From: an uncultured bacterium
GTDB lineage: Bacteria > Sysuimicrobiota > Sysuimicrobiia > Sysuimicrobiales > Sysuimicrobiaceae
DNA: 64,000 bases
Assembly: GCA_938028835.1 (NCBI GenBank)
Contig: CALIMJ010000008.1
Span: forward strand, 1 to 64,000
Direction of reading: 5' to 3'
Positions 36,155 to 36,522 of this stretch are shown piece after piece (position 1 is the stretch's first letter; every line of letters begins with the position of its first letter). The translations under genes were made by a program, and so were the position numbers. The notes below the pieces were generated by a model, which worked only from the letters and a program-made list of their open reading frames with translations, did no database searches and was not told the origin of the DNA.

Positions 36155-36183
36155 TTGACAGCGCCAACGTGGCGTGCTACCTT
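36155..36183 (+). promoter_or_regulatory. Promoter TTGACA-N17-TACCTT, divergent from the PMT gene
   Basis: Perfect -35 and 17-nt spacer. Confidence 0.5.
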
Positions 36184-36189
36184 GCCCGC

Positions 36190-36390
36190 AAAGGTCGCGG
36201 GGCCAAGTCTGGCCGCTCTGGGCCGGATGCGCGGGTTTTCAGGTCCCGGCCAATCCCAGCTGCCGGGGCTCGGTGGCCACAAGGAAAGGAGGTGGTGCGC
36301 CGTTGAGTAGACATCGCACCCCAGCCCACCTGGAGGAAAAGGGGTAAAGAGGTTGGGAGTCCCGGCGGTGGGCCGGGACTCCTGGTTTTT
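36190..36390 (+). ncRNA. Short independent transcription unit: candidate ncRNA and/or micro-ORF (TTG 36303-36347, LSRHRTPAHLEEKG)
   Basis: Bounded by a promoter and an intrinsic terminator; extended SD AAAGGAGGT 9 nt before TTG. Confidence 0.4.
36356..36390 (+). terminator. Intrinsic terminator GGAGTCCCGGC-GGTGG-GCCGGGACTCC-TGGTTTTT
   Basis: Perfect 11-bp stem and T run. Confidence 0.85.
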
Positions 36391-36431: not shown

Positions 36432-36437
36432 TATACT
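36432..36437 (+). promoter_or_regulatory. -10 element TATACT for tRNA
   Basis: Ends 8 bp before the tRNA 5' end. Confidence 0.5.
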
Positions 36438-36445
36438 CGGCGTGG

Positions 36446-36522
36446 GGCGGCGTAGCTCAGTTGGTCAGAGCACGCGGTTCATACCCGCGGTGTCGGGGGT
36501 TCGAAGCCCTCCGCCGCCACCA
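36446..36522 (+). tRNA. tRNA-CAT, most likely elongator tRNA-Met
   Basis: Full cloverleaf GGCGGCG TA GCTC..GAGC A CGCGG TTCATAC CCGCG GTGTC GGGGG TTCGAAG CCCTC CGCCGCC A CCA; anticodon 36480-36482; CCA encoded; paired 1:72 argues against initiator. Confidence 0.93.

Follow-up and report, generated by a model that had tools for sequence, protein, structure and literature searches.

Introduction

Ribosome-mediated transcription attenuators, such as those of the trp, his and similar leader-peptide operons, combine a short leader ORF with a terminator and a second helix that is incompatible with that terminator. In hok-type mRNAs, which encode a hydrophobic toxin and have an antisense RNA as counterpart, translation is held back by fold-back inhibition, the Shine-Dalgarno sequence (SD) being occluded by pairing. 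A further comparable RNA is rnTrpL/peTrpL of Sinorhizobium meliloti, a small attenuator RNA that ends at a terminator, carries a leader ORF of 14 aa, acts in trans, starts at its ATG (leaderless) and precedes trpE(G) (PMC7298713).

Here we describe a short segment in a 64,000-nucleotide stretch of DNA from an uncultured bacterium of the Sysuimicrobiaceae (hereafter the window) that shares features with each of these systems. Like the trp and his attenuators it has a short ORF, a terminator and a predicted helix that would exclude the terminator, but it has neither a regulatory codon run nor a constant downstream gene, and its SD is itself one of the competing partners. Like rnTrpL/peTrpL it would be a small terminated RNA with a 14-aa leader-type ORF; unlike it, the unit has a near-perfect SD and no biosynthetic operon, and we saw no sequence relation between the two. 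Its SD is predicted to be occluded by pairing, as in hok-type mRNAs, but no hydrophobic toxin or antisense RNA was seen in the unit, and its peptide is hydrophilic and not conserved. A literature search for a similar stand-alone unit found none. From sequence and folding models we infer transcription, translation, switching and any output, and read the segment as an RNA switch that stands alone, responds to ribosomes and carries a leader-type ORF, a reading that we think has an equal chance of being right or wrong.

Results

Conservation supports a short unit with its own promoter and terminator

The initial annotation had proposed a TTGACA-N17-TACCTT promoter, an SD close to the full anti-SD complement, a TTG-started 14-codon ORF and a perfect 11-bp terminator with a T run, followed by a tRNA with its own -10 box. 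All of these elements lie where they were placed, and the segment as we read it comprises the following features:

36155..36160, + strand: -35 element TTGACA, from sequence; 15 of the 20 copies match it perfectly and the other five differ at one position
36178..36183, + strand: -10 element TACCTT, 17-nt spacer to the -35; TAnnnT in 18 of 20 copies
36272..36279, + strand: upstream conserved block GGTGGCCA; TGG invariant, contains an in-frame GTG
36284..36297, + strand: near-perfect SD GAAAGGAGGTGGTG, from sequence, conservation and the 16S 3' end of the window genome
36294..36320, + strand: hairpin GGTGCG/CGCACC with the TTG start in its loop; predicted SD occlusion, window-genus version
36303..36347, + strand: 14-codon ORF LSRHRTPAHLEEKG; TTG start at 36303, stop TAA at 36345-36347
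36318..36330, + strand: ORF pairing element ACCCCAGCCCACC, encoding TPAH and complementary to the terminator 3' arm
36332..36336, + strand: internal SD-like GGAGG, about 9-13 nt ahead of the stop; purine-rich in all copies
36356..36390, + strand: intrinsic terminator, 11-bp stem, loop GGTGG, T run
36446..36522, + strand: neighbouring tRNA-Met(CAU), outside the unit, with its own TATACT at 36432-36437

On the window sequence taken singly, the unit could be a product of chance, since a scanner for strict consensus matches did not call the promoter or the terminator there and the whole-transcript fold of this copy was no better than that of shuffles (z -0.58), making its energy uninformative. Only three of the six positions of the window -10 box match the consensus. 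That the unit is real is settled by the conservation of its promoter boxes, SD, ORF and terminator. Upstream of the 20 copies there is a TTGACA-like box and a TAnnnT, spaced by 16-18 nt. In the window the terminator arms (36356-36366 and 36372-36382) form 11 perfect base pairs ahead of TTTTT at 36386-36390, and across 18 sequences the helix is 100% paired, with compensatory changes on both sides at two pairs.

The 16S 3' end in the window genome is GGATCACCTCCTTTC, complementary to GAAAGGAGGTG, and the SD:anti-SD duplex was computed at about -21 to -23 kcal/mol; the 11-mer GAAAGGAGGTG occurs only seven times in the 2.16-Mb genome, including once at the 16S site. Members of four families share the SD, the ORF and the terminator. 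A longer alternative start, the GTG at 36273, had also been suggested; it is in frame in the window, but the reading is not conserved, being out of frame in G008 (where it gives MANVKGGGADLE and then a stop). We therefore rejected the 24-aa ORF, and the GTG inside GGTGGCCA is probably not a start codon.

The copies form an RNA family within a single phylum

A first covariance model, made from five copies, found further copies at other loci and in two more families. With a second model, 20 of the 43 genomes from the window's phylum each gave a single strong copy; a search of 386 genomes in all, under strict filters, gave no match among the 343 that belong to other phyla. Our sample of the window's phylum consists largely of drafts, several assembled from metagenomes. 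The copies stand in at least three unrelated neighbourhoods; those at tRNA-Met are called group A, and those at other loci, in 14 genomes, group B. Their distribution is patchy, the unit being absent from family f7, genus g7 and genus g2, and the matching site holds nothing in g7 or in G014. The unit may still be present in G028, where a gap of Ns follows directly on an intact-looking promoter at the matching site.

Weak secondary matches of the covariance model were discarded as unrelated terminators or coding DNA. A pattern scan of the genome collection gave three true MAG matches, together with matches in Halomonas (one read) and Paceibacterota that were rejected as coding-like and devoid of the unit's features; viral scans returned one chance viral gene start and otherwise no match, and plasmid searches returned none. 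Rfam 15, at gathering and permissive thresholds, gave nothing credible for the window and eight group B loci, so that no known family covers the interval there. At the sequence level we are nearly certain that the segment is a real conserved unit. By these searches it belongs to an RNA family that is previously uncatalogued and so far found only in the window's phylum, and the gain is a defined set of 20 copies.

This distribution also bears on the idea that the unit, with its several GGA motifs, is a sponge for the RNA-binding protein CsrA. The csrA gene was found in none of the 14 group B genomes, nor in G005 or G008, and it is present in G004, G006 and G009, all of which lack the unit; the idea, contradicted by where csrA occurs, was rejected as having almost no chance of being correct.

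The ORF keeps its length while its peptide drifts

Of the 19 complete copies, 18 meet their first in-frame stop at codon 15 and the remaining one at codon 16, always TAG or TAA; the other two frames share no stop position beyond codon 2. This fixed frame, with its start and stop, would be a signature of translation. The group A peptides LSRHRTPAHLEEKG, LSRHRTPTHLEEEG, LSQPRTPAHREEMG, LSRPRTPAHLEDKG, LSRTPIPAHLEGEV and LSSPRIPAHLEGIR have 14 residues each. Group B follows the pattern TGGC...GAAAGGAGGTGAGGCCGACG-ATG; its ORFs include MSRLTPAHLRGKAS, and its terminator reads GCGTCCTGGC..GTGGGCCGGGGCGCTTTTCTTTT. In group A, PAH sits one codon further from the start and one codon nearer the stop than in group B, at an unchanged total length.

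Pairwise comparisons among 13 group B copies, which are not independent of each other, gave 159 non-synonymous and 20 synonymous codon differences at codons 2-4 and 339 and 41 at codons 9-14, that is 498 against 61 outside codons 5-8, a ratio that gives no sign of purifying selection at the amino-acid level. The initial annotation had offered a microprotein as one option, here a functional 14-aa product with a (T)PAH core on a stable mRNA. Frame, start and stop are indeed retained in every copy, and within the only conserved part of the peptide, (T)PAH, P and H are invariant and A is altered only in G003. However, the remaining positions vary freely and mostly non-synonymously, the PAH codons hardly vary even at their silent positions, and a Thr to Val/Ile change tracks the RNA partner (see below); NCBIfam returned no match, although so short a peptide is hard to match. 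A functional microprotein is thus disfavoured, and we regard it as decidedly unlikely.

A leader option and a structured sRNA had been offered as well, and a leader-type ORF in a structured RNA fits best: a frame that stays open at a fixed length while the peptide drifts is what such an ORF is expected to look like, and a leader-type ORF rather than a microprotein is likely on the sequence comparison. Since the conserved residues are only the central ones, which double as the pairing site, the segment reads as a ribosome-responsive RNA switch rather than as a protein gene; outside (T)PAH the ORF length is fixed but the amino acids are not constrained. It would be an unusual case of a reading frame conserved for its length and the RNA that it spans. 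No regulatory run of codons for one amino acid is present, and codons vary across copies. The internal SD-like stretch, about 8-15 nt ahead of the stop across the copies, has modest support, with a mean best anti-SD energy of -8.5 against -6.8 in shuffles.

One ORF segment has two predicted, competing partners

The ORF segment CCCGGCCCACC has two possible partners that resemble each other, namely the SD region GGTG[A]GGCCG and the terminator 3' arm. Family-wide, the SD region is predicted to pair with CGGCCCACC of the ORF. Because they use the same ORF nucleotides, the SD hairpin with the terminator on one side and the ORF:terminator helix on the other would be mutually exclusive. The ORF and the terminator 3' arm match by 10-12 uninterrupted perfect pairs in 16 of 19 copies, each at a level reached by at most 1 in 1000 shuffles, a test that overstates significance since the copies are related by descent. 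In the window genus this match has decayed to 6-7 bp (not significant in G003), and the models place its copies mainly in the terminator fold. In this genus the switch may be degenerate, or may depend on the local GGTGCG/CGCACC hairpin around the start codon.

The pair 69-159 is C-G in 12 copies, U-A in three and broken in three window-genus copies; U-A is seen in G031 and, separately, in G005/G008, where it changes the encoded residue from Thr to Val/Ile. The covariation score of the ORF:terminator helix was reached by 14 of 500 shuffles, and its support comes down to this one pair because most pairs in both competing helices never vary. No covarying pair was seen among copies in the SD:ORF helix.

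At positions where the competing helix would form Watson-Crick pairs, the group B terminator has G-U pairs. An SD:ORF hairpin with a bulged A is predicted in most group B copies; group A shifts the bulge (GGTGG[U]GCC), and the pairing is kept in G005 and G008. Most group B copies also have a hairpin of changing sequence 3' of the stop codon, and in a further likeness to hok-type mRNAs the group B U-tail is predicted to be able to pair with AAAGGA. Without a ribosome, the average predicted probability in group B was 0.52 for the terminator and 0.48 for the ORF:terminator helix, single copies leaning strongly to one fold despite this balanced average. Many copies are predicted to fold in a bistable manner. 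Placing a ribosome on codon 7 shifted the prediction to 1.0 for the terminator and 0 for the ORF:terminator helix, and a 30S subunit at the start raised the modelled ORF:terminator share only from 0.48 to 0.53.

A possible working of the switch

We propose that the unit is a small RNA gene of about 120-210 nt with its own promoter and terminator, in which ribosome loading, a fixed run length and a fixed stopping place would count, and not the peptide. Pairing of the SD with the ORF would block initiation, and the terminator would form. Capture of a 30S subunit by the near-perfect SD would free CCCGGCCCACC to pair with the terminator arm, and an elongating ribosome, covering the ORF segment, would restore the terminator. 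Once a ribosome has reached the stop codon, the segment would lie just exposed behind it and could refold onto the SD. This switching mechanism is reasoned from models, and we give it roughly even odds. If real, the switch would be a compact test case for ribosome loading feeding back on RNA structure.

A more specific version is an autonomous sensor of free ribosomes, in which the SD would capture 30S subunits and the ORF length would hold the ribosome, as it terminates, immediately 3' of the pairing element; the alternatives would be a short, SD-closed RNA and a longer one, and the output would be the RNA itself rather than a downstream gene. We consider this version unlikely.

Genomic context argues for autonomy

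In the window the unit is followed by tRNA-Met, tilS and ftsH. It also stands ahead of tRNA-Met in G002, G003, G005 and G008, while in G001 the contig ends inside the unit and tRNA-Met is on another contig; a protein mannosyltransferase gene lies divergently upstream in group A. In group B an NAGPA-family gene is downstream in 13 of 14 copies, at about 50 to several hundred nt, and most members of family f2 have a divergent CobB-like gene upstream (assigned by reading, not by Pfam). In G017 the unit is separated from NAGPA by 9.4 kb, and its immediate neighbour appears, on reading, to be convergent. The downstream gene changes across these contexts, the neighbour being tRNA-Met/tilS, NAGPA or an apparently convergent gene.

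The attenuator option of the initial annotation held up as far as the leader-type ORF is concerned. In its classical form, translation of that ORF would govern read-through in cis into the next gene, which would be NAGPA in most of group B and tRNA-Met, tilS and ftsH in group A. A terminator and an ORF:terminator helix that are predicted to be mutually exclusive would suit this, as would a same-strand downstream gene in 18 of the 19 copies where it is visible and the recurrence of NAGPA in group B. Nevertheless, the downstream genes of groups A and B are unrelated, the distance to NAGPA varies, G017 departs from the arrangement altogether, G014 retains NAGPA and its presumed promoter although the unit is missing at the matching place, and a TATAAT/TATACT-like box precedes tRNA-Met across most of the phylum, including genomes without the unit. 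Classical cis attenuation is doubtful since the downstream gene is not constant, and what we have would be an attenuator-like arrangement without a fixed gene to regulate. From their sequences, the downstream genes appear to have their own promoters. Given the differing contexts, the NAGPA of G014 and the tRNA box found without the unit, the unit is best seen as autonomous, although some members of the family may act in cis. The stand-alone transcription unit first proposed is well supported by conservation.

Autonomy, with an own promoter and terminator, would also suit a trans-acting base-pairing sRNA whose C-rich CCCGGCCCACC, complementary to SD-like GGTGG, targets the SD regions of other mRNAs, the ORF being secondary (a dual-function RNA). 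The element is, however, predicted to be internally paired in most states, and we consider this reading quite unlikely. For the ribosome-responsive switch, we prefer action in trans or self-limitation to control of the next gene.

Other features of these loci were noted in passing. By eye, the TTCATAC loop of the tRNA at 36446-36522 (CAU, near tilS) resembles elongator tRNA-Met rather than tRNA-Ile2. Upstream of NAGPA (L111, L072 and L074), conserved sequence of the type GGAAACCGGGCAGGTGAAGTCGTAGAATG looks similar to an alternative-sigma promoter and is retained in places that lack the small RNA. Finally, another structured RNA, with no Rfam match, is present in one copy each in up to ten f7 genomes (L011:1302-1400, L148-L154 and L156), which lack the unit; it has a near-invariant core GAGAGWGAGGTAGCTCTTCGGAGCCAACCCGGCTTAACC, a closing GC stem and a fold z-score of -5.4, and in some genomes it lies upstream of the tRNA-Met that is also found beside the unit.
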